Shown here piece after piece: positions 5,834 to 23,923 of a stretch of 64,000 nucleotides of DNA. A program made the position numbers and the translations under genes. The stretch lies in assembly GCA_019192445.1 (NCBI GenBank), contig JAHCMK010000003.1, positions 124,001 through 188,000 of the forward strand, read 5' to 3'. Each line of letters opens with the position of its first letter. Position 1 is the first letter of the stretch. This DNA is from Oceanococcus sp. HetDA_MAG_MS8 (GTDB lineage: Bacteria > Pseudomonadota > Gammaproteobacteria > Nevskiales > Oceanococcaceae). The notes under the pieces are model-generated. The model did no database searches. It had not been told where the DNA came from and saw nothing but the letters and a program-made list of their open reading frames with translations.

Positions 5834-7612
5834 TCAATAAACATGGGGAACGAGCGCAACTGCGGCCACCCAGAATAAGCACACAAGCGGCAGTCCCAGT
5901 TTGGCGAAATCCATCGCGGAGTATCGACCGATGCCTTGCACCATCAAATTGGTCTGATAAGCGATAGCAGTGACGAAACTCGCGGACGCACCAACGATCA
6001 GCGTGACGGTTACAGCCACGGGCGACAAACCGGCGGTTGTTCCGTATTCCAACGCGATGGGAAAAAGAATGATGACCGCAGCGCTGTTGGTGATTGCGGA
6101 GCTGAGCAAGCAAGTGAGTGCGAAAATCACACCGACAGCGAACGTTGTGCTTACCTCACCGGTTGCTGTCGATGCGAGCAACCACTGACTGATTGCGTCC
6201 GCGCAGCCCGATTCCACCAGTCCATTGCCGACACCGATCGCAGCGGCGATCACGACTAGCACTCGATAGTCCACCGCGCGCCGTGCAGCCTGGGGCGTCA
6301 CGCAACGTAGCGCCAGCATTAGGCCTGCGCCAATCCAGGTCGCGGCCAACAACGGGATGGCTCCGACTGCGGCACTGCCCACTACGGCCACAAAGACTGC
6401 GGCTGCCAGCGTGCCGCGGCGCGACCTTGCTGGGTGATACACCCCAACTTCGCGAACGAGCAAAAAATGTCCGGCGGTAACGGACGGTCTCAGCGGTCGT
6501 GATGCAGAGAGCAGCAAGGTGTCGCCAGACTGCAGAACAATGTCGCCGATTTTTCTTCCGGATAGGCGCTTGCCCCCGCGCCGCACGCCCACGATGACAG
6601 CGCCAGTGACAGTTCTGAACTCGCAATCGCGAATGCGCTGATCGACAAAACCCGATTGCGATGACACGACGGCCTCGTACCAATGCTGCTGTGAAACGGC
6701 AGCGGCTCCAGCGTCCGAGTGAACCAGCCCACGAATGCGTTGCAGATCGGCAATTCGGGTCGCGTCTCCAACAAATTCCAAACGGTCACCGGCGGCAATT
6801 ATGGTCGCCGGGCCTACAGCTGAGAGCCGTTCAGTACCCCGGACGATTTCCGCGAGGTAAACCCCGGCCAAGTGGCGCAAGCCTGCACGCTCTACGCTCT
6901 TCCCAACAATCTCGCTGTCTTCACTGACCACGAACTCAGTTGCGTAAAACTGTGCGCCAAGGTGCGCCTCATCGCGAGGTAGCTGTGGTGTGCTCTTCAG
7001 TATCACTGGCGCAGCCACACAGAGGTAGAGCGCAGTCATCAATAGAAGCGGAATGCCGACAAAAGCGGTTTGAAACAAGCCCAGCCCATCACCCGCAGCG
7101 TCAACCAGCAAACCATTGGCGATCACGTTTGTCGCGCTGCCCAGTAACGAGCAGGTGCCGCCAGCAATCGCAATGAAAGAGAGCGGCATCAGAAACATCC
7201 TTGGCGACAAGCTGTGCCGCTTGCACCAATCCATGACGGCGGGGATGAAGACCGCCACGATAGGCGTGTTGTTGACGACCGCAGAGCTGCCAGCGACCGG
7301 AACGAACATGCGCAGCATGGATCGCTTAGTACCGCTAGGTTGTCCCAATGCGATGACGCCGATGCGATCGACAATCCCAGTCTCGCGCAGACCAGCAACC
7401 AGCACGTAGAGCCCGGCGATTGTCAGCATGCCCTCGTTGGAGAAGCCGGCCAGGCCTGAGTCGATCTGGACGATGTCTAGCGAAAGCATGGCCGTCAGGC
7501 CCGCCATCATGATGATGTCGGGAGCGTTGCGGTACCGCGCCAAACCGACAAGGCACGCCACAAGGATCGCGATTGCCCACATGCTTTCGGTGGGCAGCAT
7601 GGCGGCTGACAC
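5834..7612 (-). CDS. SLC13-type anion permease with paired RCK_C (TrkA_C) domains
   Basis: The 592-residue protein has two halves of membrane helices separated by a large cytoplasmic insert (about 210-395) resembling two TrkA_C/RCK_C domains, as in SAC1-like and NadC/CitT-type permeases. Repeated transport motifs are seen as SSAVVNNTPIVAVFIPAV (about 108-125), GSATNVIANGLL (about 156-167) and SSAITNSAAVIILFPIALE near 505-523. Proteins of this design carry sulfate or other oxyanions or dicarboxylates, often with Na+. Placement directly beside the sulfur block favours sulfate or a related anion. Its start overlaps the stop of the upstream DUF156 regulator by one base, so they are co-transcribed. 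Confidence 0.85.
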   Translation of the reverse strand: MSAAMLPTESMWAIAILVACLVGLARYRNAPDIIMMAGLTAMLSLDIVQIDSGLAGFSNEGMLTIAGLYVLVAGLRETGIVDRIGVIALGQPSGTKRSMLRMFVPVAGSSAVVNNTPIVAVFIPAVMDWCKRHSLSPRMFLMPLSFIAIAGGTCSLLGSATNVIANGLLVDAAGDGLGLFQTAFVGIPLLLMTALYLCVAAPVILKSTPQLPRDEAHLGAQFYATEFVVSEDSEIVGKSVERAGLRHLAGVYLAEIVRGTERLSAVGPATIIAAGDRLEFVGDATRIADLQRIRGLVHSDAGAAAVSQQHWYEAVVSSQSGFVDQRIRDCEFRTVTGAVIVGVRRGGKRLSGRKIGDIVLQSGDTLLLSASRPLRPSVTAGHFLLVREVGVYHPARSRRGTLAAAVFVAVVGSAAVGAIPLLAATWIGAGLMLALRCVTPQAARRAVDYRVLVVIAAAIGVGNGLVESGCADAISQWLLASTATGEVSTTFAVGVIFALTCLLSSAITNSAAVIILFPIALEYGTTAGLSPVAVTVTLIVGASASFVTAIAYQTNLMVQGIGRYSAMDFAKLGLPLVCLFWVAAVALVPHVY

Positions 7613-7887
7613 TAGCCGTACTTGGCAAGGATGCGGGTGACGTCGGCAACGCCGGCTTCAAGCTCGCCGGTGATGGGCTGGTGGCGCTCGACTTCCTGCG
7701 TGACGGCGCAGGCCATCATTTCAAAGAACGCTTTATCCAAGGCGCGCCGGACTGCGGTCATCTGAATGGCCAGCTTCTCGCACTCTTCGCCGGCATCCAC
7801 CATTTTTTGAATGCCGCGGATCTGCCCTTCAGCGCGCTTGAGCCTCGCAATCATCGCGCTGCGTTTATCGTCCCAATCGGTTGCCAT
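7612..7887 (-). CDS. DUF156 (CsoR/CstR/FrmR family) repressor
   Basis: A 91-residue all-helical repressor of the DUF156 family, with the signature RLKRAEGQIRGIQKMVDAG and QMTAVRRALDKA. The ATG at 7887 is preferred over one at 7905 because TGGGG lies about 6 bases upstream. Family members sense Cu(I), Ni/Co, formaldehyde or persulfide. Here the conserved first cysteine (C36) is present. The second cysteine is at residue 60, five residues earlier than the metal- or persulfide-binding Cys of CsoR and CstR, and no histidine fills the CsoR site. The sulfide-oxidation genes around it and matching operators at three promoters suggest a sulfane-sulfur sensor. That is inference; the ligand is not shown by the sequence. 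Confidence 0.88.
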   Translation of the reverse strand: MATDWDDKRSAMIARLKRAEGQIRGIQKMVDAGEECEKLAIQMTAVRRALDKAFFEMMACAVTQEVERHQPITGELEAGVADVTRILAKYG

Positions 7888-7911
7888 TGCATCCCCAGTC
7901 ATCAAACTTGC

Positions 7912-7927
7912 ATGCCCATAGGGGTAT
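7912..7927. promoter_or_regulatory. Candidate DUF156-repressor operator, site 1
   Basis: The 16-bp site ATGCCCATAGGGGTAT has the form ATRCCC-N4-GGGTAT and sits between the divergent starts of the repressor (7887) and the YeeE/YedE gene (7967). A TTGCAT hexamer overlaps its left edge, so bound repressor could block polymerase. Two near-identical sites occur at 10135 and 18925. Confidence 0.7.
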
Positions 7928-7966
7928 GCCTACGCTTATTAGCCAAAGTCTACTGGCGCACGCTTT

Positions 7967-8401
7967 ATGGATACAACTGCATTTACTCCCCTCACTGGCT
8001 TGGCAGGCGGTTTGCTGATCGGCCTGTCCGCAGTGCTGCTGCTGCTCGCCAATGGGCGGATCGCCGGCATCTCCGGCATTGTGGGTGGGTTGCTCGCGCC
8101 AGCACGGGGCGAATGGGCCTGGCGTCTGTTGTTCGTCGTTGGCTTGGTTTCCGGCGCAGCGGTCTACATGGTCTCGACGGGCAGCTTGGGTGTTTCTGTC
8201 CAAGCGGCGTGGCCAGTCATGGCGGCTGCGGGCCTGCTGGTTGGCATTGGGACGCGGCTGGGTTCCGGGTGCACATCCGGGCACGGGGTCTGCGGCATTG
8301 GTCGGCTCTCGGCTCGCTCGATGATCGCAACCATCGTATTCATGGCAACCGCTGGCACCACGGTTTTCATCGTTCGGCATGTTGTCGGAGGCGGGGTATG
8401 A
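7967..8401 (+). CDS. YeeE/YedE (DUF395) sulfur transporter, first half (PmpA-like)
   Basis: A 144-residue membrane protein with about four helices. The signature GSGCTSGHGVCG (about 103-114) is the cysteine motif of YeeE/YedE proteins, whose characterised members import thiosulfate. Full-length YeeE is about 350 residues with two such halves. Here the halves are separate genes, as in the PmpA/PmpB pairs found in BigR-type sulfide regulons. It follows a candidate repressor operator, diverges from the repressor gene, and overlaps the next gene by ATGA. It probably forms a heteromeric channel with that gene's product for a reduced sulfur species. Confidence 0.88.
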   Translation: MDTTAFTPLTGLAGGLLIGLSAVLLLLANGRIAGISGIVGGLLAPARGEWAWRLLFVVGLVSGAAVYMVSTGSLGVSVQAAWPVMAAAGLLVGIGTRLGSGCTSGHGVCGIGRLSARSMIATIVFMATAGTTVFIVRHVVGGGV

Positions 8402-8820
8402 GTGCGGGCACTGCGCGGGGCCTCGCCGCACTCATCGCGGGCGTGCTGTTCGGGCTTGGGCTGGCAATCTCGCAGATGGTCAACCCAGCAAAGGTGCTGA
8501 ATTTCCTCGACGTGGCAGGGCATTGGGACCCCACTCTTGCCCTGGTGATGGGCGGGGCTCTGCTCATCACCATCCCGGCGTTTCGCTTCGTACTGAAGCG
8601 CCCGGCACCGTTGTTGGACGGACGCTTTCATCTGCCCACACTCAATGACGTGGACGGCCGACTAATTGCCGGTGCCGCGTTGTTCGGGGTTGGTTGGGGG
8701 CTTGGAGGATTGTGCCCAGGGCCTGCGGTTGCTGCCACGCTCTCTGGCGCAGGCGCAATACTGATCTTCCTGCTGGCGATGCTAATCGGTAGCTGGTTGG
8801 TCAGCCACTTTCAGGCATGA
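8398..8820 (+). CDS. YeeE/YedE-like transporter, second half (PmpB-like)
   Basis: A 140-residue membrane protein with about four helices. The sequence SQMVNPAKVLNFLDVAGHWD (about 24-43) and the GWGLGGLCPGPA motif (about 99-110) match the second half of split YeeE/YedE transporters. I chose the ATG at 8398 that overlaps the preceding stop codon; the same frame is open much further upstream, but that part is not coding. It is the partner of the preceding GSGCTSGHGVCG protein. Reduced-sulfur transport is inferred from the family and neighbours. Confidence 0.88.
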   Translation: MSAGTARGLAALIAGVLFGLGLAISQMVNPAKVLNFLDVAGHWDPTLALVMGGALLITIPAFRFVLKRPAPLLDGRFHLPTLNDVDGRLIAGAALFGVGWGLGGLCPGPAVAATLSGAGAILIFLLAMLIGSWLVSHFQA

Positions 8821-8860
8821 CCCGCCCGAGTGGCCGTCAGTGGCACTCAGACCACTCGAC

Positions 8861-10108
8861 TTAGCCGCTGACCACGCTCGGGCGGGGCTTCGGTGACGGC
8901 TTGTCCCAGTTCTTGCCCGCCAGCATCACATTCCAGTAAAGCCAGGGAAAAAAGCGCCGTTTCATCACCCACTGCAAGCGGCGGGGGACGGTGGGGTCCA
9001 GCGGGAAACTGGGAACGACTTCGCCGCCATAGCGAAACTCCGCCAACATCACCTTGCCGCGCTCGGTCGTGAGTGGGCAGGCACCGTAGCCGTCATAGCG
9101 CTCGGCGCCGTTCCCGTGGCCGAGCTTGGCCAAGACGCCACTGACAACCGCCGGAAACTGCCGGCGCACGGCTGCTGCCGTCTTCGCATTGGGCGTGTTG
9201 GTGCAATCGCCCAGGCCATACACGTTCTCGTATTGATCGTGGCGCAGGCTGTTCTTGTCCACCGTCACCCAACCAGAGTCGTCCGACAGCGGGCTAGCCT
9301 TGATGAAGTCTGGCGCGCTCTGGGGCGGCACCACGTGTAGCATGTCGAAGCTGGCTTCCACGTCGCCATTCTCCGTATGGAATGTGGCGCGCTTGTCGGC
9401 ACCATCTACAGCGATCAGGTTATGCCCAAAGTGGGTGTGAATGCCATAGTCGGCAACCACTTTGTCCAAGGCCTTGGCGTACAACGGCACGCCGAACATC
9501 CCGCCGCCCTGGTTGTAGAAATGCACGTTGGCCGCCACACCTTGCTTGCGCCAGTGATCGGCCGACAGATACATCGCTTTTTGCGGCGCACCAGCACACT
9601 TGATCGGCATGGACGGCTGGGTGAACACCGCATCGCCGCCTTTGAACTGCTGCGTCAGTTGCCAGGTGTACGGCGCGAGGTCGAAGCGGTAGTTGGACGT
9701 GACACCGTTCTTGCCGAGCGACTCAGTCAGGCCATCGATCTTGTCCCAGTCCAGTTGCAAGCCAGCCGCCATCACCAGCACCTTGTAGCCGACCGTCTTG
9801 CCGCTGGCCAACGTGAGGCGATTACTGTCCGGCTCAAAGGACGCAGCGGCGTCCTTGATCCAAGTTGCCTTGTCAGGCATGTGATCGCGCTCGGCGTGGT
9901 GCGTGGCCGCAGCGCTCATTGCACCGCCGCCTACAAGGGTCCAGCCGGGCTGGTAGTAGTGGTCGTCGCTGGGCTCGATCACTGCCACGTCCAGGTCAGG
10001 CTGCGCTCGCAGCAAGCCCGCAGCCACTGCGAGGCCGCCTGCGCCCCCGCCGACAATGACGACGACATGCGTGTGGTCTGTGTTGGTGTTGGGATCTTGC
10101 TGGTGCAT
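8861..10108 (-). CDS. sqr: Sulfide:quinone oxidoreductase (SQRDL-like)
   Basis: A 415-residue flavoprotein of the SQR/flavocytochrome family. The FAD dinucleotide-binding motif GGGAGG is at about 20-25 and the second FAD motif GDC near 300-302. The redox cysteines that carry the trisulfide are C171 in PIKCAGAPQK and C344 in YGACPLTT, a two-cysteine pattern typical of type II (mitochondrial SQRDL-like) enzymes. It oxidises sulfide at the membrane, passes electrons to quinone and hands sulfane sulfur to an acceptor such as glutathione. It is divergent from the persulfide dioxygenase gene and shares with it a promoter carrying a candidate DUF156 operator. Confidence 0.93.
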   Translation of the reverse strand: MHQQDPNTNTDHTHVVVIVGGGAGGLAVAAGLLRAQPDLDVAVIEPSDDHYYQPGWTLVGGGAMSAAATHHAERDHMPDKATWIKDAAASFEPDSNRLTLASGKTVGYKVLVMAAGLQLDWDKIDGLTESLGKNGVTSNYRFDLAPYTWQLTQQFKGGDAVFTQPSMPIKCAGAPQKAMYLSADHWRKQGVAANVHFYNQGGGMFGVPLYAKALDKVVADYGIHTHFGHNLIAVDGADKRATFHTENGDVEASFDMLHVVPPQSAPDFIKASPLSDDSGWVTVDKNSLRHDQYENVYGLGDCTNTPNAKTAAAVRRQFPAVVSGVLAKLGHGNGAERYDGYGACPLTTERGKVMLAEFRYGGEVVPSFPLDPTVPRRLQWVMKRRFFPWLYWNVMLAGKNWDKPSPKPRPSVVSG

Positions 10109-10134
10109 TGGTTGCCTCCGTTCGTTTCGCCTTG

Positions 10135-10150
10135 ATACCCATGCGGGTAT
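10135..10150. promoter_or_regulatory. Candidate DUF156-repressor operator, site 2 (perfect arms)
   Basis: ATACCC-ATGC-GGGTAT has perfectly inverted 6-base arms. It lies between the divergent sqr and persulfide dioxygenase genes, with a TTGATA hexamer overlapping its left side (10132-10137) that could be a -35 element of the rightward promoter. Confidence 0.75.
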
Positions 10151-10208
10151 GGCTTTACCATTTGGTTATAAGCATATGCTTTTGTGAACCCATTGCAAGG
10201 AGGCTCCC

Positions 10209-10907
10209 ATGCTCTTTCGCCAACTTTTCGACGACACCTCCAGTACCTACACCTATCTGATCGCCTCCGGCCGTGGCCGAGAGGCCCTGATCATCGACCC
10301 GGTCAAGGAGCACACCGAGACCTATCTCGGCCTGATTGAGCAGCTTGAACTGAAGCTCGTGCGCGCAATAGATACGCACACCCACGCCGATCACGTCACC
10401 GCGCTGGGTGACCTGCGCACGGCCACTAACTGCGTGACGCTGATGGGCGAGTTCACCAAGGCCGAGTGCGTGTCCGACCATGTGTCCGAGGGCGATGTGG
10501 TGGATGTGGACGGCATCCGCCTGCACGCGCTGTACACGCCCGGCCACACTGACGAATCCTTCAGCTTTCATCTCCAGCATGCCGCCATGGACGCGGTGTT
10601 TACCGGCGACGTGTTGCTGATTCGCGGCTCGGGGCGCACCGATTTTCAAGGTGGTGACCCGCATCGCAGTTGGGATTCCATCACCAACAAACTGTTTGCC
10701 CTGGGCGATGACACGCTTGTCTACCCCGCGCACGACTACAAGGGTTGGTCAGTGTCCTCGATCTTTGAAGAAAAGCACTTCAACCCACGCCTGGCTGGCA
10801 AGTCCGAGGCCGAGTACGTGGACATCATGAACAACCTCAATCTACCCAACCCCAAGCTGATGGACGTTGCGGTGCCGGCGAATCTGGCCTGCGGGCAAGC
10901 GGCATAG
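10209..10907 (+). CDS. Persulfide dioxygenase (ETHE1-like, metallo-beta-lactamase fold)
   Basis: A 232-residue metallo-beta-lactamase-fold protein of the ETHE1 type. The metal-binding set is visible as HTHADH (H57, H59, D61, H62), PGHTDES (H113), TGDVLLIRGSGRTDFQGG (D134) and PAHDY (H175). The GRTDFQGG segment is diagnostic of ETHE1/SDO proteins, which use one mononuclear iron to oxidise glutathione persulfide to sulfite. A strong AAGGAGG Shine-Dalgarno precedes the ATG. It is the natural next step after SQR and is followed after 6 bases by a SulP permease, so the operon runs on through that gene. Confidence 0.95.
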   Translation: MLFRQLFDDTSSTYTYLIASGRGREALIIDPVKEHTETYLGLIEQLELKLVRAIDTHTHADHVTALGDLRTATNCVTLMGEFTKAECVSDHVSEGDVVDVDGIRLHALYTPGHTDESFSFHLQHAAMDAVFTGDVLLIRGSGRTDFQGGDPHRSWDSITNKLFALGDDTLVYPAHDYKGWSVSSIFEEKHFNPRLAGKSEAEYVDIMNNLNLPNPKLMDVAVPANLACGQAA

Positions 10908-10913
10908 CAAACA

Positions 10914-12662
10914 ATGCCGGCACGCTTCCCAGCTCGGTTGTTCCCGCTGTTCGCGCACATGAATGCGCCGGATCGGGGCGCGTTTGGCGACGACCTGCTG
11001 GCCGGTGTCATCACGGCAATCCTGCTGATTCCGCAGGGCATGGCTTATGCGCTGCTCGCCGGCCTACCGCCCGAGATGGGGTTGTACGCCTCCATCGTGC
11101 CGCCGTTTGTCTATGCCTTTTTTGGCAGCAGCCGGGCGCTTGCCGTCGGCCCGGTAGCAGTGGCAGCCCTCATGGTGGCCAGCGCGCTGTCGGCCTACGC
11201 GGATGGCGACCAGGCCAAGTACCTGACTGGCGCACTGATTCTCGCCGCTGAAACCGGGTTGATTTTGCTGGCGCTTGGCGTGTTCCGGCTGGGCGCTTTG
11301 GTTAGCTTCATCAGCCACCCGGTGCTGTCGGGCTTCACGACGGGCGCAGCGGTACTCATCATCACTAGCCAGCTCAAGCATCTGACGGGGATTGATATAC
11401 CGCGCGGCGACGGCTTCGAAACTGTGCATGCGATCGTCATGCGGCTGGGCGAATTCAATGCTGAAACGCTGACCTTTGGCGTGGCCTCCGTCGTGCTGCT
11501 GTTGCTGGCGCAGCGGCCCTTGCAGCACCTGCTCGTTCAGTTCGGTTTATCGAAGCGTGCGGCTGGAATCACGTCTCGCACCGCGCCGCTGGTCATCGTG
11601 TGTGTCGCGACCGCAATCGCAGCGACTCTTCAGGCGGATACCGCTGCAGGTGTGGCGATTGTTGGTTCGATTCCAGGCGGCCTGCCGATGCCGACGCTGG
11701 AATTTCTGACAGCAAGCGGCTGGATCGATCTGTTGCCATCGGCCGTACTGATTGCCCTGGTCGGCTACGTGGAAAGCGTGTCTGTGGCGAAGGTGCTCGC
11801 CGCGCGGCGGCGGCAGAAAATTGACGCCAATCAGGAACTGACTGCGCTAGGCGTCACCAACGTTGCCGCTGCGGTCGCGGGCACCATGCCGGTTGCAGGT
11901 GGCTTCTCCCGCTCGGTGGTCAATTTTGACGCCGGTGCTCGCACGCAGCTCGCCGCCATCATCACGGCAGGGCTGGTTGCCATCGTGGCGCTGTTCTTCA
12001 CTGCGTGGTTTCACTATCTGCCCAACGCGGTGCTGGCGGCCATCATTGTTGTGGCCGTCGCCAAGCTGATCGACGTGCCAGGCGCGCGTCGTGTGTGGGC
12101 CTATGACCGAGCCGATGGCGTCGCACTGGTGGCAACTGCATTGGCCGTGCTCGCCGTGGGCATCGAGGCCGGGCTGCTAGTGGGCATCGGCCTGTCACTG
12201 GCGCTGTATTTGTGGCGCACCAGCCAACCGCACATGGCGGTCATCGGCCGCGTGCCGGGGACCGAGCACTTCCGCAACGTCTGCCGCCATGTCGTCGAGA
12301 CCGATCCACGGCTGCTGATCGTCCGGATCGACGAGAACCTGTACTTTGCCAACGCTGAAGCTGTCGAGGCATACCTGATGGAGCACGTGGAGGCCAGCAG
12401 CCGCATCCAGCACGTACTGTTGGTGCTCTCCGCCGTCAGCTACATCGACAGCAGCGCACTCGAAGTGCTGGAGCACTTGGCTGATGACCTGCAGGCCGCC
12501 GGCATCACGTTGCACTTGGCCGAGGTCAAGGGCCCGGTCATGGATCGCCTCAATCAGTCGGCGCTCGGGCGCGTGATTGGCCCTGAGCACATCTTTCTGA
12601 CAACCCATCGTGCCGTTGAAGCATTGGCTCCGGCACCTGAGCCCACGGAGGGCATTACATGA
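10914..12662 (+). CDS. SulP-family anion permease with STAS domain
   Basis: A 582-residue SulP transporter: about twelve helices (30-430), including GMAYALLAGLPPEMGLYASI (about 43-62), the SulP signature region, followed by a C-terminal STAS domain (about 450-560) with VSYIDSSALEVLEHL. Family members carry sulfate, bicarbonate or related anions. It sits between persulfide dioxygenase and a rhodanese and overlaps the latter by ATGA. That placement suggests it moves sulfite or sulfate, the end products of the pathway, or brings in sulfate. Direction and substrate are inference. Confidence 0.9.
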   Translation: MPARFPARLFPLFAHMNAPDRGAFGDDLLAGVITAILLIPQGMAYALLAGLPPEMGLYASIVPPFVYAFFGSSRALAVGPVAVAALMVASALSAYADGDQAKYLTGALILAAETGLILLALGVFRLGALVSFISHPVLSGFTTGAAVLIITSQLKHLTGIDIPRGDGFETVHAIVMRLGEFNAETLTFGVASVVLLLLAQRPLQHLLVQFGLSKRAAGITSRTAPLVIVCVATAIAATLQADTAAGVAIVGSIPGGLPMPTLEFLTASGWIDLLPSAVLIALVGYVESVSVAKVLAARRRQKIDANQELTALGVTNVAAAVAGTMPVAGGFSRSVVNFDAGARTQLAAIITAGLVAIVALFFTAWFHYLPNAVLAAIIVVAVAKLIDVPGARRVWAYDRADGVALVATALAVLAVGIEAGLLVGIGLSLALYLWRTSQPHMAVIGRVPGTEHFRNVCRHVVETDPRLLIVRIDENLYFANAEAVEAYLMEHVEASSRIQHVLLVLSAVSYIDSSALEVLEHLADDLQAAGITLHLAEVKGPVMDRLNQSALGRVIGPEHIFLTTHRAVEALAPAPEPTEGIT

Positions 12663-13042
12663 ACCTGAAATCTGCTGTACAGGCGCTGCTCGGCAGCGCC
12701 GAAGACGTCGTCGAGCAGCGTCACGCCGACACCATCGACCCCGCTGACCTGACCGGCTTTCTGCTGCTGGACGTGCGTGAGGACGACGAATACCTGACGC
12801 AGCGCATCCCGGGCGCAATCAGCTTGCCGCGCAGCCGGCTGGAGATGGCCTGCGTGGATTGCGCGCCACTCACTCAGCATGCGGACAAGCCGGTGCTGGT
12901 CTACTGCAAGAGCGGCCGCCGATCATTGCTGGCAGCCAAGACGCTGCGCGAGCTTGGCGTAGAGAACCCCATCTCCATGGCTGGCGGCATCACTGCTTGG
13001 ATGGCCGCGGATAAGCCTGTCGAGACGGGTGGTTCCGTATGA
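12659..13042 (+). CDS. Rhodanese-like sulfurtransferase (cytoplasmic)
   Basis: A single-domain rhodanese of 127 residues. It has LLLDVREDDEY (about 36-46), the active-site loop CKSGRRS with C83, and a C-terminal AGGITAWM motif. No signal peptide is seen, so it acts in the cytoplasm. It would transfer sulfane sulfur between thiols, for example between glutathione persulfide, thiosulfate and sulfite. It overlaps both neighbours by ATGA and is translationally coupled between the SulP permease and the oxidase. Confidence 0.92.
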   Translation: MNLKSAVQALLGSAEDVVEQRHADTIDPADLTGFLLLDVREDDEYLTQRIPGAISLPRSRLEMACVDCAPLTQHADKPVLVYCKSGRRSLLAAKTLRELGVENPISMAGGITAWMAADKPVETGGSV

Positions 13043-14709
13043 CCGTTGCGATCGCTTTTTTGCTGTCGATGACCTTCCTGATCTCGATCGGCGGTCTGTT
13101 TCTGTTGATCTGGGCTGTGACCAATGATCAGTTCGGGATGGGGCAGAAAGCCGCGCAGATGATCTTTGCCGATGGCGAGGTTGGCCGCGTTGAAGACCCG
13201 GCCACGCCAGCAACGGATCGCGCTGAAATGCAGCGAAAGCGCAACCCTGTACTCCCCGGCGATGAACCAGACGAGGCCGGGCCGAATGAAGATGCAGGCG
13301 AACTCACCGATCGCATGCGATTCGATCAATCCAGCCGAGTACCTGTGCTGGTGTGGTTGTCGTCGTCCATGATCTGGCTGTTGCTTGCCTCGGTGCTTGG
13401 TGTGGTGGCATCCATCAAGCTGCACGCCCCAGACTGGCTGGTCTCCGAGGCGATCCTCACGTTCGGCCGCATCCGGCCCGCACACCTGAATGTTGCTGCC
13501 TACGGCTGGGCCTCCATGGCAGGTGTGGGGGTGGGTATCTGGCTGATTCCGCGGTTGTTCAAGACCACGCTGGTCGGTGGTCACTTCGCAACCGCCGGTG
13601 GCGTGGCCTGGAACATCGGTGTACTGCTCGGTACGGTAGCCATCATCGCAGGCGCGAGCGATGGCCTGGAGTGGCTCGAGATTCCCTGGCAAGTGGACAT
13701 TGCACTGGTGATTGGCGGGGCTCTGGCTGCGATTCCGCTGATTCTGACTTTGCTGCGCCGGCGCGTGCAGCACCTGTACGTGAGTAGCTGGTATCTGATC
13801 GCCGCATTGGTCTGGTTCCCCATGTTGTTCCTGACGGCCAACGTGCCCGGCCTGTTCTCGGGCACTGAGCAGTCCATCCTCAACTGGTGGTTTGCTCACA
13901 ACGTGCTGGGGCTCTGGATGACGCCGCTAGCCCTGGCTGCTGCCTACTATTTCATCGCCAAGATCGTTGGCGCGCCAATCTACTCCTACTCGCTATCGCT
14001 CATCGGTTTCTGGGCCTTGGCGCTGTTCTACAGCCAGGTGGGCATCCACCATCTGATTGGTGGCCCGGTTCCCACTTGGCTGGTCTCGTTGTCAATCGTC
14101 ACAAGCGTGATGATGGTGATCCCCGTGCTGGCGGTCGCTATCAATCACCATATGACCGTCGCACCCCACTGGCGCTTGCTGCTGCACTCGCCCACGCTCC
14201 GCTTTGTGGTGTTGGGCGCGATGATGTACACGTTCGCGTCCGTGCAGGGGTCGATTGAGGCGCTTCGCAGCGTCAATACCGTCACCCACTTCACGCATTA
14301 CACCGTGGCGCACGCGCACATGGGGATGTACGGGTTCTTCTCGTTTGTCATGTTCGGCTCGATCTATTTCATCATGCCGCGGCTGATGAACTGGGAGTGG
14401 CCGTATCAGACAGCCATCGTGGCGCACTTCTGGCTTGCATTTGGCGGCTTCGCCGTCTACTTCTGGCCGCTGACCGTGGGCGGGCTCAAGCAAGGGCTGG
14501 CCATGCTCGATGCGAGCGTGCCCTTTATGGACTCCGTGGCGATCACGCAGCCGTATTTGATTGCGCGGTCTGTTGGCGGTGTGCTGATGACACTGGGGCA
14601 TGCGGTGTTCGTCACGCACTTCTTTGTCGCCGTGCAGCGCGGAGGCTTGAAGCGTGAGCAGCCCTTGCGCCTGCTTGGCCGCTTCCAGCGTAACGGAGGT
14701 GCGGCATGA
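13039..14709 (+). CDS. C-type (cbb3-like) oxidase catalytic subunit with N-terminal CcoS-like domain
   Basis: The 556-residue protein begins with a short single-helix segment (1-55; LIWAVTNDQFGMGQ then MIFADGEVGR) that resembles CcoS, the small copper-loading factor for cbb3 oxidases. A hydrophilic linker follows, then a CcoN-type haem-copper oxidase subunit with about twelve helices. Candidate ligands are H149 (low-spin haem), H287 and H337/H338 (CuB), and H425/H427 in HYTVAHAHMGMYG. PIYSYSLS near 313-320 offers the active-site Tyr of C-type enzymes. The product reduces O2 to water using cytochrome c electrons. CcoN and CcoS are normally separate genes; the fusion seems intact and in one frame. 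It overlaps the rhodanese and CcoO genes by ATGA. Confidence 0.88.
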   Translation: MTVAIAFLLSMTFLISIGGLFLLIWAVTNDQFGMGQKAAQMIFADGEVGRVEDPATPATDRAEMQRKRNPVLPGDEPDEAGPNEDAGELTDRMRFDQSSRVPVLVWLSSSMIWLLLASVLGVVASIKLHAPDWLVSEAILTFGRIRPAHLNVAAYGWASMAGVGVGIWLIPRLFKTTLVGGHFATAGGVAWNIGVLLGTVAIIAGASDGLEWLEIPWQVDIALVIGGALAAIPLILTLLRRRVQHLYVSSWYLIAALVWFPMLFLTANVPGLFSGTEQSILNWWFAHNVLGLWMTPLALAAAYYFIAKIVGAPIYSYSLSLIGFWALALFYSQVGIHHLIGGPVPTWLVSLSIVTSVMMVIPVLAVAINHHMTVAPHWRLLLHSPTLRFVVLGAMMYTFASVQGSIEALRSVNTVTHFTHYTVAHAHMGMYGFFSFVMFGSIYFIMPRLMNWEWPYQTAIVAHFWLAFGGFAVYFWPLTVGGLKQGLAMLDASVPFMDSVAITQPYLIARSVGGVLMTLGHAVFVTHFFVAVQRGGLKREQPLRLLGRFQRNGGAA

Positions 14710-15365
14710 CACGCGCTCTTGGTATTTTTGCAGGCGCGGCGCTCATCCTGCTGTATGCGACCCTGCTGCTTGTGGTGATGCCGACGGTGCAGATCCGCGC
14801 GGGCATCACGCCTCCGGAGGGTTTGGCTCCGTATACCAAAGCCGAGCAGCGGGGCAGAGACTTGTATGTGTCGCTGGGCTGCGTGTACTGCCACAGCCAG
14901 CAACCGCGCGACCCCAAGCAGGCGCCTGACGGTGCCCGCGGCTGGGGGCGCCCCTCCGTACCGGCCGACTATTACTACGACGAGCCGCACCTGCTGGGCA
15001 CCATGCGCACGGGACCTGACCTGCTCAACATCGGCGCACGTCAGCCAAGCGTGGACTGGCACCTGACGCACTTGTATCAACCGCGTGCGGTGGTGCCAGG
15101 CAGCACGATGCCGGCATATCCGTTTCTGTTCGATCTAACCGACGTGGTCGTTGCCGACGACAAGGTCGTCAAACTGCCGGAGGACTACCAGCCGGTGGGC
15201 GCAACCGTCGTCGCTCGCCCGGGGGCGATGGATCTTGTTGCGTATCTGAAATCACTGGATCGCACCTACCCCGTCAGTGAAATCCCGACGGAACCGGCCA
15301 CCGAGGCCGCCAGTGACGTTGTTGTCGACCAGGCAACCGGCGACTCGGAGACCAATGATGAGTGA
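14706..15365 (+). CDS. ccoO: Cytochrome c subunit II of cbb3-like oxidase
   Basis: A 219-residue membrane-anchored mono-haem cytochrome. One N-terminal helix (about 5-27) is followed by the haem motif CVYCHSQQPRD (C59, C62, H63). The FixO/CcoO signature segments GRPSVPADYYYDEPHLLGTM and GPDLLNIG come next, then a distal methionine candidate in GSTMPAYPFL. It conducts electrons into the catalytic subunit. Overlaps with the genes on both sides place it inside the oxidase operon. The acidic, low-complexity tail (about 195-219) is unlike classic CcoO and may be flexible. Confidence 0.93.
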   Translation: MTRALGIFAGAALILLYATLLLVVMPTVQIRAGITPPEGLAPYTKAEQRGRDLYVSLGCVYCHSQQPRDPKQAPDGARGWGRPSVPADYYYDEPHLLGTMRTGPDLLNIGARQPSVDWHLTHLYQPRAVVPGSTMPAYPFLFDLTDVVVADDKVVKLPEDYQPVGATVVARPGAMDLVAYLKSLDRTYPVSEIPTEPATEAASDVVVDQATGDSETNDE

Positions 15366-15951
15366 GCGGCAAACCGACAAGGCAACCGGCATTGCCGCGC
15401 GCGAAACGATTGAGCCTGACGAGCTGCACAATCCAGTGCCATGGTGGTTCGCCATCATCGCGCTCGTGGCAATCGCTTGGGGCGCAGCCTACTTCTTCTT
15501 CCAGACCGGATATCCAGTGGCGGCCGGCGACATGCGCACCCCCATAGTTGAGGCGTCGGGTGACGCCATAGACGGAGCTGCGGTTTACGCTGGCAACTGT
15601 GCCTCGTGTCATCAGGCCAACGGCGCGGGCTTGGCTGGCGTGTTTCCGCCGCTGGACGGTTCCGAGTGGGTAGTAAACGCGCCGGAGCTCCCCATCCAGA
15701 TTCTGCTGCACGGGATTAACGGTGAGATGCAGGTGAATGGCCAGCGCTATCAGGGCGTGATGCCAGGGTTCGCCCAACTCTCAGACGGTGAACTAGCTGC
15801 GGTGGTTTCGTACATCCGCGGGAGCTGGTCAAACGCGGCGTCACCCGTTAGTGATAGCGATGTGGCAGTTGGACGCGAGTCGTATCCGGATCGGGGCCCG
15901 TGGAACAGCGGCAGCGAGCTGCGGGCAACTATCGCAGACCCAGGCCAATAG
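15358..15951 (+). CDS. Membrane-anchored mono-haem cytochrome c (CcoP-like)
   Basis: About 197 residues. An N-terminal cytoplasmic stretch with DELHNPVPWWF (about 21-31), typical of CcoP, precedes one helix (about 29-48) and a single cytochrome c domain with CASCH (C81, C84, H85) and a GVMPGFAQLSDGELAAVVSY distal region near residues 125-144. Classic CcoP has two haem domains, so this is a shorter form. Either ATG of the pair at 15355/15358 can serve; a GGAG lies 5 to 8 bases upstream and both overlap the ccoO stop. It likely accepts electrons from soluble cytochromes or the bc1 complex. Confidence 0.9.
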   Translation: MSERQTDKATGIAARETIEPDELHNPVPWWFAIIALVAIAWGAAYFFFQTGYPVAAGDMRTPIVEASGDAIDGAAVYAGNCASCHQANGAGLAGVFPPLDGSEWVVNAPELPIQILLHGINGEMQVNGQRYQGVMPGFAQLSDGELAAVVSYIRGSWSNAASPVSDSDVAVGRESYPDRGPWNSGSELRATIADPGQ

Positions 15952-15968
15952 CGGAGACCGCGCGGTCA

Positions 15969-18188
15969 ATGCGTAGCACGCTCGCGATTGACGGGATGTT
16001 CTGCGGTGGCTGCGCGGCGACTGTCGAGCGCGCGCTTGTCGGTATGCCGGGTGTGCAAACAGCCGCCGTATCGTTCATCAGTGATGCGGCGGTGGTTGAG
16101 CACGACACCGAGTCAGCCCCGGTCGAGCGGCTTGTTGATCGCGTCCAGCACATTGGGTACTCCGCACGCAATCTGGACCAAAGCGGCGGGAACCTAAATG
16201 CGCCGCACTCCCGAAACGCTTTTCAAACCAATCTGGTGATTCGCCTGTGCGTGGCCATCGCGCTGGGCATGTGGGTCATGCTGGCGAGCATTGCCGGATA
16301 CATGGGCCAAGTACCGGCTGGCGATGGTGCCTGGTGGTTGGCGCTCGCTACTTGCATACTTGCTATACCCGTGGTGCTGTACAGCGGCAGCCGGTTCTAC
16401 CAAATGGCCTGGCGCAGCGTGCGTGTTGGGGCACCGGGCATGGACGCGATGATCACGCTGGCGGTACTGGCTGCCAGCGTTGTCTCGGTTGCCAATCTGG
16501 CGCTCGGCATCCCCGTGGTCTATGCCGATGCCGCGGTGATGCTCATCACCTTCCAACTGATTGCACGCCTGACCGATTTTCACGTGCGCCGACAGGCCAC
16601 CGACGCCATGCGGGCCCTGTTGGAGCTGGCTCCAGACAGGGCAATGCGCGTGCCGTCTGCCGATCCGCGCAAATCTGGCGGTGCGACCGAGCAAGCCGAG
16701 TCGGTGCTTGCACGAGATTTGACGCCGGGCGACTACATTGTTTGCCGGGCTGGCGAACGCATTGCGGCAGATGGCGTCGTTGTTGATGGTCGTGGCCATG
16801 TTGACGCCAGTGTGCTGACGGGTGAATCTAGGCCGGTTCCGGTTGCTGACGGTAACCGCGTAGATGCAGGCTGCGTTGTGCTGGATTCGGCGATTACCGT
16901 GCGCGTTTCTGCCGGTGGCGGGCACCGGGGCATCGACGCGCTCGCAGCTGAAGTCCGGAGATTGGTGATTGCCAAGAGCGCGCTGGCTCGCACCGTTGAC
17001 CGTATCGCATATCGCGTGGTTCCGGCGATGGTGCTGGCCAGCGTGGCCGCCGGCGCGCTGGCACTATTCCAAGGGCTGGGCGCGCAGACTGCGGTGCAGC
17101 GGGCACTGGCTGTGCTCGTCGTCACCTGCCCGTGCGCGCTGTCTTTGGCGATACCGCTGGCGGTTGCACGAACGACAGCGGCGGCGCGCAGCCTTGGAGC
17201 GATTCTCCGAGACCCTGCTGCCATTGAGCAGGCCGGCAGCTTGCAGTCTGCATTCATCGACAAGACCGGAACGCTGACGGTTGGCCAACCACGGGTGCGC
17301 TCTGTTGTGCCGCAGGACGATTTCAGCCCAACCGAGGTGCTAGCCATCGCCGCGCAGGTCGAGGCCAATTCAACACATCCGCTGGCCCGTGCCATCGTTG
17401 AGGCAGCCGATATTTCCCGTGCCGACCAGGTCAGCCAGGCAGTCGAACGTGCCGGCCAAGGAATTATCGCGCAGTCAGCAACGGGTGAGCGCTTGCTGGT
17501 GGGCGCCGCAGACTTGTTGCAGGCGCACGGAATTCAACTCCCTATCCATCAGCCAAGCGATGCTAGCGAAGTCTGGGTTGCACGAGGCGAGCACTGTCTG
17601 GGGCGCATCGAACTTGCCGATGCACTGCGACCGGGTGCCAGCGACGCGATCAAGCGGTTGGCCGCAATGGGCATCAACACAAGAATTCTCAGTGGCGATG
17701 GGCCAGGTCCTGTGCAAGCGGTTGCCAATGCATTGGATGTGCCGGGCACGAGCCGGTGCTCGCCAGAAAGCAAAAAACAGATCATTGCAGCGCGCCAGAA
17801 AGGCGGCGAGCGCGTCATCTTCGTCGGCGATGGCCTGAACGACGGGCCGGCCTTGGCCGCCGCGGATATTGGTGTCGCCGTTGCCTCGGCAACCGAACTT
17901 GCACGCTCGGCGAGTGCGATTGGATTGCTACGCGGCGGGGTGGAGCAACTCCCGAGATTGGTTGCACTGCTGCGCCGCAGCCGACGGATCCTGCTGCAGA
18001 ACCTTGCCTGGGCCCTGATCTACAACGCGATCCTTGTGCCTGTGGCCATTTTGGGCGGTATCCAACCCGTGTGGGCGGCAGTTGCGATGGTCGCAAGTAC
18101 GCTCAGCGTGCTCGCCAACAGTTTGCGGATTCGCGTGTTATCGCGCTCCGAACCAGAACACGTCGCCAACTATCAGGGCTGCTTGTGA
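15969..18188 (+). CDS. ccoI: Copper-translocating P-type ATPase (CcoI-like)
   Basis: A P1B-type ATPase of about 739 residues. An N-terminal heavy-metal-associated domain carries GMFCGGC (C12, C15). Helices follow, with the actuator TGES loop, the metal-site motif CPCALSLAIPLA, the phosphorylation site DKTGT, the STHPLARA HP locus and the hinge GDGLNDGPAL. CPC marks Cu(I)/Ag(I) specificity. Its place directly after the cytochrome genes identifies it as the CcoI type that supplies copper for oxidase assembly rather than detoxification. The frame is open from 15900, but the HMA fold starts at the ATG at 15969, after a GGAG about 12 bases upstream. Confidence 0.92.
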   Translation: MRSTLAIDGMFCGGCAATVERALVGMPGVQTAAVSFISDAAVVEHDTESAPVERLVDRVQHIGYSARNLDQSGGNLNAPHSRNAFQTNLVIRLCVAIALGMWVMLASIAGYMGQVPAGDGAWWLALATCILAIPVVLYSGSRFYQMAWRSVRVGAPGMDAMITLAVLAASVVSVANLALGIPVVYADAAVMLITFQLIARLTDFHVRRQATDAMRALLELAPDRAMRVPSADPRKSGGATEQAESVLARDLTPGDYIVCRAGERIAADGVVVDGRGHVDASVLTGESRPVPVADGNRVDAGCVVLDSAITVRVSAGGGHRGIDALAAEVRRLVIAKSALARTVDRIAYRVVPAMVLASVAAGALALFQGLGAQTAVQRALAVLVVTCPCALSLAIPLAVARTTAAARSLGAILRDPAAIEQAGSLQSAFIDKTGTLTVGQPRVRSVVPQDDFSPTEVLAIAAQVEANSTHPLARAIVEAADISRADQVSQAVERAGQGIIAQSATGERLLVGAADLLQAHGIQLPIHQPSDASEVWVARGEHCLGRIELADALRPGASDAIKRLAAMGINTRILSGDGPGPVQAVANALDVPGTSRCSPESKKQIIAARQKGGERVIFVGDGLNDGPALAAADIGVAVASATELARSASAIGLLRGGVEQLPRLVALLRRSRRILLQNLAWALIYNAILVPVAILGGIQPVWAAVAMVASTLSVLANSLRIRVLSRSEPEHVANYQGCL

Positions 18189-18856
18189 ACGGAACTATAA
18201 AATCGCGCACGCTTCACCGGCTGGTGATGGTTTTTTGCACCCACTTCATCTGGGCGTTTCTTGGCCCAGTTGCCTTGGCGGCCGAAGACTCGGAAACGCT
18301 CGTACCGGGGCCCAGCGGTGTCGGCACACCCGAAATAGCTGGGTCTGCCTGGGCAAGGGCACTTGTCCAGCCGCTGTCTAGCACCTTGAAGGCAGCACTT
18401 GAATCAAGTGGCCCAGTTCAGGCGCTGTCGGTTTGCAGTATTCAGGCACCGCTTATTTCGGCCGCGGTGGCGCAGCAGGCCGCGCCGGACAGTGGCTGGC
18501 AGCTCGTCGGGCTCGGTCGTACCGCGCAGAAACTACGGAACCCGGACAACGCACCGGACGACGACGTTGCCGCAGTTCTCGATGACTTCATGGCAAGTCA
18601 CCAAAGCGGTGAGCCGCCACCATCACGTGTTTTGCGACCGGATACCAACAGCCTGATCTACCTCCAAGGCATACCGACACAACACGGCTGCCTTGCTTGC
18701 CATGGTGCGTCCTTATCACCGTCGCTGGAGCGGAGAATTGATGTGCTCTATCCAGAAGATCGTGCCACTGGATTCTCAGAAGGAGAACTGCGAGGCACAT
18801 TCTGGGCGCGATGGGAGCTGACCCGACCAGCGGAGTCACGGCTGTCGAACAAATAG
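18185..18856 (+). CDS. Exported haem-binding Tll0287-like (DUF3365) protein
   Basis: About 223 residues from a GTG start that overlaps the ccoI stop (GTGA). An N-terminal hydrophobic segment (MVFCTHFIWAFLGPVALAAE) looks like a signal peptide, so an internal ATG near 18226 is an alternative start. The mature part has a CLACHG c-type haem motif near residue 180 and the general layout of Tll0287-like domains, which bind haem in periplasmic sensors. No kinase or cyclase output domain is attached. Its coupling to ccoI and the oxidase suggests a redox or electron-carrier role in the periplasm, which is inference. Confidence 0.75.
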   Translation: MNGTIKSRTLHRLVMVFCTHFIWAFLGPVALAAEDSETLVPGPSGVGTPEIAGSAWARALVQPLSSTLKAALESSGPVQALSVCSIQAPLISAAVAQQAAPDSGWQLVGLGRTAQKLRNPDNAPDDDVAAVLDDFMASHQSGEPPPSRVLRPDTNSLIYLQGIPTQHGCLACHGASLSPSLERRIDVLYPEDRATGFSEGELRGTFWARWELTRPAESRLSNK

Positions 18857-18924
18857 AAAGCGCCTATCAAGACCGTAGAAACGAATCATTGGACTGACTG
18901 ATGCGTCGAGACTAGCCTATCTGC

Positions 18925-18940
18925 ATACCTATGGGGGTAT
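18925..18940. promoter_or_regulatory. Candidate DUF156-repressor operator, site 3
   Basis: ATACCTATGGGGGTAT has the same 16-bp length and arms as the sites at 7912 and 10135, with one mismatched arm position. It lies in the intergenic stretch upstream of the peroxiredoxin gene, which starts at 19037. Confidence 0.7.
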
Positions 18941-19036
18941 ATCTCGCCTTGTTTGAGCAAGGCAGTTTGGAACAGGCTCCGAACCGATTTCTTTCAAATG
19001 ACGCCCCGGCGCTTTCAGAACCAGAGGAAACGACTA

Positions 19037-19690
19037 ATGGCTATTCGCATCAACGAAACAGTGCCCAATATTGATCTGCAGACGGATCAGGGCGACTTCA
19101 AACTCCATGACTTTATTGGTGACAAATGGACAATTTTGTTCAGCCACCCCAAAGACTTCACGCCCGTGTGTACCACTGAATTCAGTGCGGTCGCTCAACT
19201 TGCTGATGAATGGGCCAAGCGGAATACGCAGGTTATCGGGCTGTCCGTGGACGGCGTTGAAGAACACAAGGCGTGGAAAGTCGATATTGAACAGTTCGGC
19301 GGTGCGAAGGCCGGTTTTCCGATCATCGCCGATGAATCGCTGGAGGTATCCAAGGCGCTCGACATGCTGCCCGCTGATGCCTATTTGCCAGATGGAAGAA
19401 CGGCTGCCGACTCTGCAAGTGTTCGGGTCGTTTTCATCTTCAGCCCCGACAAGAAGCTGCAATTGTCGATGACCTACCCGATGTCAGTTGGGCGGAATTT
19501 CGCGGAAGTGCTGCGTGCTCTGGATGCCTTGCAGGCCACCTACGGGGAGCCGATCGCCACACCTGCCAACTGGCAGCACGGGCAGGACGTCATTGTGGCT
19601 CTGTCGCTGAACGATGACGATGCCAAGGCCAAGTTTGGCGATATCGACATTAAGTTGCCTTACCTGCGCACGGCGAGTCTGGGTGACTAG
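19037..19690 (+). CDS. 1-Cys peroxiredoxin (Prx6-like)
   Basis: A 217-residue peroxiredoxin. It has the catalytic PKDFTPVCTTEF motif with peroxidatic C45, and the C-terminal extension typical of the Prx6 group (PYLRTASLGD ending). No resolving cysteine is evident. It reduces hydroperoxides with an external thiol, and related enzymes in sulfide regulons may also handle persulfides. The start is taken at 19037 after a GAGG sequence; an upstream extension to 18953 runs through the promoter and is rejected. It has its own promoter with a candidate operator, and two rhodaneses lie downstream. Confidence 0.93.
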   Translation: MAIRINETVPNIDLQTDQGDFKLHDFIGDKWTILFSHPKDFTPVCTTEFSAVAQLADEWAKRNTQVIGLSVDGVEEHKAWKVDIEQFGGAKAGFPIIADESLEVSKALDMLPADAYLPDGRTAADSASVRVVFIFSPDKKLQLSMTYPMSVGRNFAEVLRALDALQATYGEPIATPANWQHGQDVIVALSLNDDDAKAKFGDIDIKLPYLRTASLGD

Positions 19691-19802
19691 AGTTAGACCA
19701 ATTACTGGGTTTGCTCCGGCGTACGCTGGAGGAAAACCGCATAGTCGGTAGACGGATTGCTCTGTGGGACACGCGACATGCGAATCTCATCCGGCGCTCA
19801 CC

Positions 19803-20366
19803 ATGAGTCGAGTGAGATGGTTCCCGCTGGCTGCCGTGGCCATCGTCTATTTAGTAGGGAACGTGGCAACGGCTGACGGGCTTGGGCGCATGGAATGGCT
19901 GGTCGACGTGCGTTACGACATTCCAGAGGTCACAGTCGATGAGGCAAAGGTTGCGTTGGCAAATGACCCCGCCGAGTGGGTGGTATTGGATGTTCGCGAG
20001 CCCGACGAATTCGCGGTCAGCCACTTGCCCGGTGCCGTGCGCATCCCGCCAGATGCCGATATCGAGACGTTTACACAAGTCGTCGGAGACACGCTCGCCG
20101 ACAAACGCGTGCTCTTCTACTGCTCAGTCGGGCAGCGTAGTACCAAGGTGGCTAGTCGCATGGAGGACGCTGTGCGCGAGGCGGGCGGCCAAGGCGTTGC
20201 CAATTTGCGGGGCGGCATTTTTCGCTGGCATGGCGCGCATGGGCCACTCGAGAACGCCAGTGGGCCGGTGGATCGTATCCATTCCTACAACGCGATCTGG
20301 GGCAAGTTGATGCCACGCAAGAACCCGCCCGAAGTGGACACCGATCAAACGGAGGAGAGCTCATGA
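19803..20366 (+). CDS. Exported rhodanese-like protein
   Basis: A 187-residue rhodanese with an N-terminal hydrophobic segment (about 5-24; FPLAAVAIVYLVGNVATADG) acting as signal peptide or anchor, so it probably works in the periplasm. The domain shows VVLDVREPDEF (about 60-70) and the active-site loop CSVGQRS (C107). A long tail past the GGIFRWH motif (about 145-187) is of unknown role. The ATG at 19803 begins the signal segment. It overlaps the following rhodanese by ATGA. Confidence 0.88.
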   Translation: MSRVRWFPLAAVAIVYLVGNVATADGLGRMEWLVDVRYDIPEVTVDEAKVALANDPAEWVVLDVREPDEFAVSHLPGAVRIPPDADIETFTQVVGDTLADKRVLFYCSVGQRSTKVASRMEDAVREAGGQGVANLRGGIFRWHGAHGPLENASGPVDRIHSYNAIWGKLMPRKNPPEVDTDQTEESS

Positions 20367-20794
20367 ACCAAGTGTTTCAAAGGACCAGACCAAGATGGCT
20401 CGCGCTGGTGATGGCCGGCCTGATGGTCGTCACGCAAGCGTGTTCCGGCCAGGCCGCACCCGAGGCATCCGTGCAATTTGTCACGGTGGACGCTGCGGTA
20501 GCCGCCGCACAAGATGGAATCACCGTCATCGATGTGCGCACGGATCGCGAGTGGGCCGCAAGCCACTTGCAGGCTGCGCAGCATCTGCCGCTGTCCACGC
20601 TGGATGAAGCGCTGCCAATGTCGGACCTGGATCGCGGCCAGCCCGTGTTGCTGCACTGCAAGTCTGGTGGGCGGGCGACACGGGCCAGCCAGCAGTTTGC
20701 GCAGGCTGGCTTCACCGACATTCGGGTGCTCAAACCTGGTGGCTACGCCGAGCTGGCCGCCGCCGGGCTGCCCACCGAACCCGACGATGAGTAG
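20363..20794 (+). CDS. Rhodanese-like lipoprotein
   Basis: A 143-residue protein with a lipoprotein-like signal (hydrophobic 12-24, then a cysteine at C27 in VVTQACSG), followed by one rhodanese domain with VIDVRTDREW and active-site CKSGGRA (C99). It would be anchored on the periplasmic side and move sulfane sulfur or thiosulfate sulfur there. It overlaps both neighbours and is the second exported rhodanese in a row, a redundancy that suggests different partners. Confidence 0.88.
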   Translation: MNQVFQRTRPRWLALVMAGLMVVTQACSGQAAPEASVQFVTVDAAVAAAQDGITVIDVRTDREWAASHLQAAQHLPLSTLDEALPMSDLDRGQPVLLHCKSGGRATRASQQFAQAGFTDIRVLKPGGYAELAAAGLPTEPDDE

Positions 20795-23846: not shown

Positions 23847-23923
23847 TGGCGCGCCCGGCAGGATTTGAACCTGCGACCCCTGCCTTCGGAGGGCAGTACT
23901 CTATCCAGCTGAGCTACGGGCGC
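23847..23923 (-). tRNA. tRNA-Arg (anticodon CCG)
   Basis: Read on the minus strand from 23923, it forms a complete 77-base cloverleaf: 7-bp acceptor stem GCGCCCG/CGGGCGC, anticodon loop CTCCGAA giving CCG, T-loop GGTTCAAATCC, discriminator G and an encoded CCA. It decodes the Arg codon CGG. Confidence 0.95.

Follow-up and report, generated by a model that had tools for sequence, protein, structure and literature searches.

In a 64,000-nucleotide stretch of the genome of Oceanococcus sp. HetDA_MAG_MS8 (the window), three 16-bp sites are likely to be operators of the locally encoded DUF156 repressor, with sulfane sulfur relieving the repression of three units. Very probably, a sulfide-detoxifying gene set is jointly switched off by this one small repressor. 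The regulon is a variant of the sulfur-responsive regulons under CstR-like repressors. CsoR-family control of sulfide genes, and G/C-tract operators of this build, are already known.

Three 16-bp sites in a sulfur gene locus

An earlier note on this DNA had described three matching 16-bp sites ahead of sulfur genes, and all three were confirmed letter for letter. These candidate operators and the genes around them are as follows.

4830-5705: LysR protein gene
5834..7612, minus strand: DASS/CitMHS anion permease with TrkA-C domains, abutting the end of the repressor gene
7612..7905, minus strand: DUF156 (CsoR/RcnR-family) repressor (PF02583, E 6.4e-19)
7912-7927, no strand assigned: candidate operator 1, ATGCCCATAGGGGTAT, between the diverging DUF156 and YeeE genes
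7967..8401, plus strand: YeeE-like half transporter (PF04143, E 4.4e-7)
8398..8820, plus strand: second YeeE-like half transporter (DUF6691; PF20398, E 2.7e-40)
8861..10108, minus strand: sulfide:quinone oxidoreductase (sqr), type III-like (NF049943, E 9.7e-62, under its cut-off)
10135-10150, no strand assigned: candidate operator 2, ATACCCATGCGGGTAT, between the diverging sqr and pdo
10209..10907, plus strand: persulfide dioxygenase-like metallo-hydrolase (pdo; profile matches)
10914..12662, plus strand: SulP anion transporter with STAS domain (profile match)
12659..13042, plus strand: rhodanese (profile match)
13039..15951, plus strand: cbb3-type oxidase, as overlapping genes for CcoN (CcoS-like N terminus), CcoO and CcoP
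15969..18188, plus strand: CcoI-like copper P-type ATPase (Pfam HMA and E1-E2 ATPase; the name CcoI is from position)
18245..18856, plus strand: Tll0287-like protein (start not fixed)
18925-18940, no strand assigned: candidate operator 3, ATACCTATGGGGGTAT, ahead of the peroxiredoxin gene
19037..19690, plus strand: peroxiredoxin with 1-Cys-type C terminus (profile matches)
19764..20794, plus strand: two rhodanese proteins (profile matches)

Because the DASS permease gene directly adjoins the repressor gene, the two are probably co-transcribed. The sqr gene diverges from a close or overlapping run made up of pdo, SulP, rhodanese, CcoN, CcoO, CcoP, CcoI-like ATPase and Tll0287-like genes, a spacing that suggests that the operon of site 2 extends to the oxidase genes. 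THTHADH and GRTDFQ are present in the translation of 10209..10907, whose product we take, from knowledge of the family, to be a persulfide dioxygenase. The CcoN protein (13039-14709) has an N-terminal extension of about 100 residues with a weak match to CcoS/FixS (PF03597, E 9.6e-4, under the cut-off), so that a CcoS-CcoN fusion within the sulfide operon is possible.

By ORF coordinates, site 1 lies 39 bp ahead of the YeeE gene, site 2 lies 26 bp from sqr and 58 bp from pdo, and site 3 lies 96 bp ahead of the peroxiredoxin ATG. Site 2 overlaps the one promoter-like match of a promoter scan, a TTGATA -35-like hexamer at 10132; at the other two sites, the scan gave nothing promoter-like. An inverted repeat (GCCTTG-TTTGAG-CAAGGC, 18946-18963) was seen by eye immediately downstream of operator 3, within the leader of the peroxiredoxin genes.

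Of the three sites, 10135-10150 alone has two perfect 6-bp arms; 7912-7927 and 18925-18940 are near-palindromes. The search pattern proposed at the time, ATRCCNN[N4]NGGTAT, is 17 letters long, not 16, and has no match in the window, from which ATACC-N7-GGTAT is also absent. Scanning the genome with the 16-bp form, ATRCC-N6-GGTAT, did recover the three window sites among 18 distinct places, the other 15 lying elsewhere. These looser 10-letter matches are mostly inside genes (12 of the 15 were inspected; 10 were inside and 2 between ORFs).

The three sites differ among themselves at positions 3, 6, 9 and 10, and one of them has 1 mismatch, the other two 2 each, to ATACCCATAGGGGTAT, the sequence ahead of the orthologous repressor gene in another genome (G005, locus L010). 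A search of the window with this sequence, allowing up to 2 mismatches, found just the three sites against 0.02 expected, and none of 100 shuffles yielded three; in the whole genome of 3,529,516 bp, the same search found the three window sites and nothing else. Chance occurrence of the motif among unrelated genes, which had been named as grounds for rejecting the regulon, was thus not seen at high similarity, the best genome matches being the three sites themselves. With up to 3 mismatches there were 17 strand hits, of which the 14 beyond the three sites all had 3 mismatches; since a control gave 22, we regard the 3-mismatch matches as background. A weight matrix built from 20 sites of other genomes placed the three sites at the top in the window, in the order site 2 (20.5), site 3 (19.2) and site 1 (17.3), the next best score being 8.1. 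Of 400 simulated windows, two had a best score of 17.3 or more, and none had a third-best score above 10.5.

A second SQR gene is present elsewhere in the genome (56% identity), with no site among the genome matches to ATACCCATAGGGGTAT. The locus is flanked by a phage-integrase-family gene (PF00589, 2350-3201) and a tRNA-Arg (23847-23923), and the one other genome of the genus examined (G065) has no DUF156 match, no ATACC-N6-GGTAT, and a best SQR match of only E 3.4e-4. The locus is perhaps an acquired island; a repeat of the tRNA end marking such an island was sought within the window and not found.

The motif and DUF156 genes across the order

DUF156 matches were found in 45 of 85 genomes of the order (46 genes; E 1e-6), and ATACC-N6-GGTAT occurs 105 times in these 45. 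With the genome of the window left aside, a DUF156 gene is found no more than 12 kb from 29 of the 99 remaining sites (23 of 44 genomes) versus 0.66 expected, although genomes of one order are related, so that such Poisson figures overstate independence and are only indicative. The reversed motif, used as a control, had 32 sites in the 45 genomes, none of them within 12 kb of DUF156. The exact motif is missing within 12 kb of the gene in 21 of the 45 DUF156-bearing genomes; 49 sites occur in the 40 genomes without a DUF156 match, so a background of sites exists. The proposed link between the sites and the local repressor nevertheless gains support from this comparison of sequences: the repressor is the sole DUF156 match in its genome, and the motif tracks DUF156 across the order, whereas the reversed motif does not.

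The gene sets point in the same direction. Around the DUF156 genes of 35 relatives' loci we found YeeE in 33, PDO-like proteins in 24 and SQR in nine. These loci contain 27 motif sites, 23 of which precede a match to DUF156, YeeE, sqr or pdo by no more than 330 bp; the exact motif is carried by 20 of the 35 loci and is missing from 15, and sites precede sqr in eight. In four loci (L010-L013), ATACC-N6-GGTAT occupies the same place as operator 1, between DUF156 and YeeE. As in the window, several sites are spread over one sulfur locus in G083 (three) and G068 (four), the latter including one ahead of a second PDO gene and one ahead of a DsrE-family gene. The cbb3 oxidase had no match in the other 35 loci.

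Could sites 1 and 2 alone be real, with site 3 a chance match? Peroxiredoxin matches occur in four of the 35 relatives' loci, none with a site ahead of it, so that operator 3 has no counterpart there, and the genome matches with up to 3 mismatches do not exceed background, as noted above. However, site 3 outscores site 1 in the weight matrix (19.2 versus 17.3), it is intergenic and within 11 kb of sites 1 and 2, and a like site ahead of a di-haem peroxidase gene in G046 provides a loose parallel. We consider a chance origin of site 3 unlikely, and retain all three sites as candidate operators.

The site in G046, ATACCCATGGGGGTAT (L075, 8256), stands about 150 bp ahead of a di-haem cytochrome c peroxidase gene (PF03150) and far from the DUF156 gene; among the matches listed, the two others of the three DUF156-distant sites in that genome had no clear link to genes. 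Two further genomes, G073 and G079, have ATACC-N6-GGTAT sites ahead of a DUF2244/cytochrome oxidase gene set (L095, 9172; L107, 7516); in G079, no DUF156 gene was matched at E 1e-6.

A repressor lineage with its second cysteine at +24

The repressor could start at TTG 7905 (97 aa), ATG 7902 (96 aa) or ATG 7887 (91 aa), and its PF02583 score of 68.6 bits, against a cut-off of 22.8, places it in the DUF156 family. Its two cysteines are 24 residues apart, with Ala at +25 and Glu at +29. It therefore has neither the Cys, His+25, Cys+29 set of CsoR nor the second cysteine of CstR at +29 (C60); the control of sqr, pdo and rhodanese from nearby operators, as in CstR, is matched by position only. Residue 2 is Met, Thr or Ala, depending on the start codon, rather than the Pro2 that goes with Cys35 in FrmR, and Ala and Glu stand where RcnR and InrS have metal ligands (+25/+29).

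We read cysteine positions in 39 of the 46 DUF156 sequences of the order. The window protein has the first helix-2 cysteine, as do all 39; the second was at +24 in 36, the other three having Ser there and a cysteine at +32. In a tree of 118 sequences, from which FrmR and RcnR were left out and whose inner order is unsure because it rests on few columns, a branch with 100/98 support separated 71 of 72 Cys+24 and 5 of 5 Ser+24 sequences from the others. Across that branch were the CstR-type (25) and CsoR-type (16) sequences, plus one long-branched +24 stray. The named members of the +24 lineage are mostly from Pseudomonadota, with one Planctomycetota bin. By sequence, then, the repressor is distinct from CsoR, FrmR and canonical CstR, and the +24 cysteine marks a separate, mostly proteobacterial lineage.

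Some sequences met along the way deserve mention. A Bacillota locus (L343) has Cys+24 together with His+25. In a contig titled as a Klebsiella pneumoniae MAG (L143), the repressor groups with sequences of the window's order, and the bin is probably mislabelled. The available part of one source (PMC5016687) gives the family cysteine as conserved in all members; L282 and L284-L289 encode DUF156-like proteins that lack it (..YAEVVQQTNAVFSAIRRIN..).

We infer binding, repression, ligand, cysteine chemistry and operon extent as follows. Reduced repressor tetramers would bind the TAC/GTA arms and G/C tracts, covering the promoters of three units: the repressor-permease genes with the diverging YeeE genes, the repressor thus repressing its own gene; sqr with the diverging pdo-SulP-rhodanese-cbb3 oxidase genes; and the peroxiredoxin-rhodaneses genes. 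Type 2 operators of the CsoR family have the same build and require the TAC/GTA arms, according to the text available of PMC3902906. SQR would make sulfane sulfur (persulfide or polysulfide) from sulfide, and YeeE may import some; sulfane sulfur would then modify the conserved first helix-2 cysteine, releasing the repressor from DNA. The induced proteins would import, oxidise and relay sulfur, with the locus's own cbb3 oxidase taking the electrons.

The closest known systems are CstR (Staphylococcus aureus, Streptococcus pneumoniae) and YrkD (Bacillus licheniformis), described in the accessible portions of PMC5480029 and PMC9918477 as sulfane-sulfur repressors of sulfide-oxidation operons. They share with the window repressor the DUF156 fold, the first helix-2 cysteine and sulfide-oxidation and sulfur-relay targets, and most CstR-type loci likewise carry 16-bp sites with a G/C tract. 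The solved structure closest in sequence is CstR of Streptococcus pneumoniae (7mq3, E 1.1e-9). However, CstR lies on the opposite side of the well-supported branch, and it pairs C31 with C60', i.e., at +29 (PMC5480029, in part), whereas the second cysteine of the window repressor is at +24. Since this is not the CstR position, CstR-like cross-linking cannot be assumed. By our own estimate, the +24 cysteine would lie on an ideal helix about 120 degrees away from the +25/+29 face. On helix geometry, it does not have to point at the partner chain's first cysteine, for which a cysteine at +32, as in some relatives, would be better placed.

CsoR, the copper sensor, is like the window repressor in fold and operator build but differs in His+25/Cys+29 and in its 17-bp sites (TAC-X9-GTA), the window sites being 16 bp. 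BigR (Acinetobacter and others), as far as the available text describes it, controls a yeeE-yedE-pdo2 operon and senses persulfide. It belongs to the ArsR family and is unrelated to DUF156. TTHA1953 of Thermus thermophilus, as covered by the part available of PMC10318464, is a DUF156 protein that regulates sulfur oxidation and whose two cysteines, C39 and C68, have the +29 spacing; unlike here, its operator, TACNNTACNNNNGTANNGTA, is without a G/C tract and its gene is far from its targets. In Hyphomicrobium denitrificans, a YeeE-like protein, SoxT1B, is encoded beside the sulfur repressor SoxR, which differs in being ArsR-type, and acts as its signal unit (PMC11582611, from the sections available). 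By analogy only, the YeeE partner here could likewise feed the signal to the repressor.

Copper, nickel/cobalt or formaldehyde, the ligands of CsoR, RcnR and FrmR, could instead be sensed at these same DUF156 operators. The family and the operator style are common to metal and formaldehyde sensors, a P-type ATPase is encoded in the locus, and NCBIfam gave weak matches to RicR, FrmR and RcnR, all far under cut-off. The predicted monomer (pLDDT 87.7), all-helical like the family, had its top fold Z of 11.1 with FrmR (5lbm) and 9.0 with CstR; helical bundles can reach such values by chance, and this comparison of a predicted model confirms the family only. Conversely, CsoR's His+25 and Cys+29 are replaced by Ala and Glu, and the Pro2 for FrmR sensing and the +25/+29 metal ligands, requirements taken from the part of PMC5016687 at hand, are absent. 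Moreover, the neighbours are sulfur genes, the ATPase gene closes an oxidase gene run, and the operator length matches sulfur-type loci (see below). A non-sulfur ligand thus appears quite improbable. It is most improbable that another regulator, e.g., the LysR protein encoded nearby, binds the sites with the DUF156 gene a mere passenger, since the motif tracks DUF156 in other genomes and its G/C-tract TAC/GTA build is the published CsoR-family type.

Operator length and effector type

Sulfane sulfur is our preferred ligand of the repressor, and operator length bears on this choice. We counted ATACC-Nn-GGTAT at n = 6 (16 bp) and n = 7 (17 bp) per locus type, with types assigned from residues and loci that are not independent. 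In a first set, which retains near-copies (L171/L177, L175/L185), the n = 6 and n = 7 counts were 27 and 1 for loci of the order, 6 and 2 for named +24 loci, 24 and 6 for CstR-type, and 2 and 22 for CsoR-type; counts for every other length and for the reversed control ranged from 0 to 2.

A second, largely actinobacterial set was chosen without regard to operators, according to how the DUF156 match ranked. It comprised 27 loci from 10 genomes, 29 new loci and 60 regions (40 low-ranking, 20 higher-ranking), 27 of the loci having been inspected before the last 60 were picked; 12 of 116 loci were dropped for overlap with earlier ones, and 11 'other' and one mixed were tallied separately. The n = 6 and n = 7 counts were 1 and 24 for CsoR-type, 37 and 8 for CstR-type, and 1 and 1 for other types (Fisher p 6e-11). 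Sorted by neighbours, judged with window proteins as probes only, they were 22 and 2 beside sulfur genes, 0 and 13 beside a P-type ATPase, 1 and 1 beside both, and 16 and 17 beside neither. The sole 16-bp site in a CsoR-type locus of this set (L214, genome G091) lies about 3.5 kb from a CstR-type gene, and seven of the eight 17-bp sites in CstR-type loci belong to a single group of actinobacteria in which the probes found no sulfur neighbours. In a sample of 69 Bacillota loci, the counts were 0 and 11 for CsoR-type, 2 and 2 for CstR-type (12 loci), and 2 and 0 for one +24 locus.

On these counts, copper-type loci have 17-bp sites in all three sets, in agreement with the TAC-X9-GTA sites of Streptomyces CsoR (PMC3902906, in the part available). 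Sulfur-type loci have mostly 16-bp sites in the window's order and the second set, those in Bacillota being too few. Operator length thus seems to tell sulfur from copper sensors, with exceptions. We put forward tentatively, at somewhat less than even chances, a wider reading: a 1-bp length code across phyla, with TAC-X8-GTA for sulfur and TAC-X9-GTA for copper (CsoR), and the +24 lineage as a second, separately built Cys-pair sulfur sensor in Proteobacteria, fed by YeeE. Our literature search found neither the +24 lineage nor the length rule, though an earlier mention is possible.

With this regulon, Proteobacteria would have a sulfide circuit that resembles the one of CstR but uses a different spacing of the cysteines, and whose targets can be predicted. 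If the length rule is true, operators would reveal which class of effector many still unstudied DUF156 repressors respond to, and the rule would help to explain how copper and sulfur paralogues in one cell can avoid cross-talk.

An actinobacterial DUF156 group without sulfur-probe neighbours (L257, L260, L267 and L269-L272; GEDCES..LTQFAAAKGAFQRVGE) combines Cys+29 with 17-bp sites.
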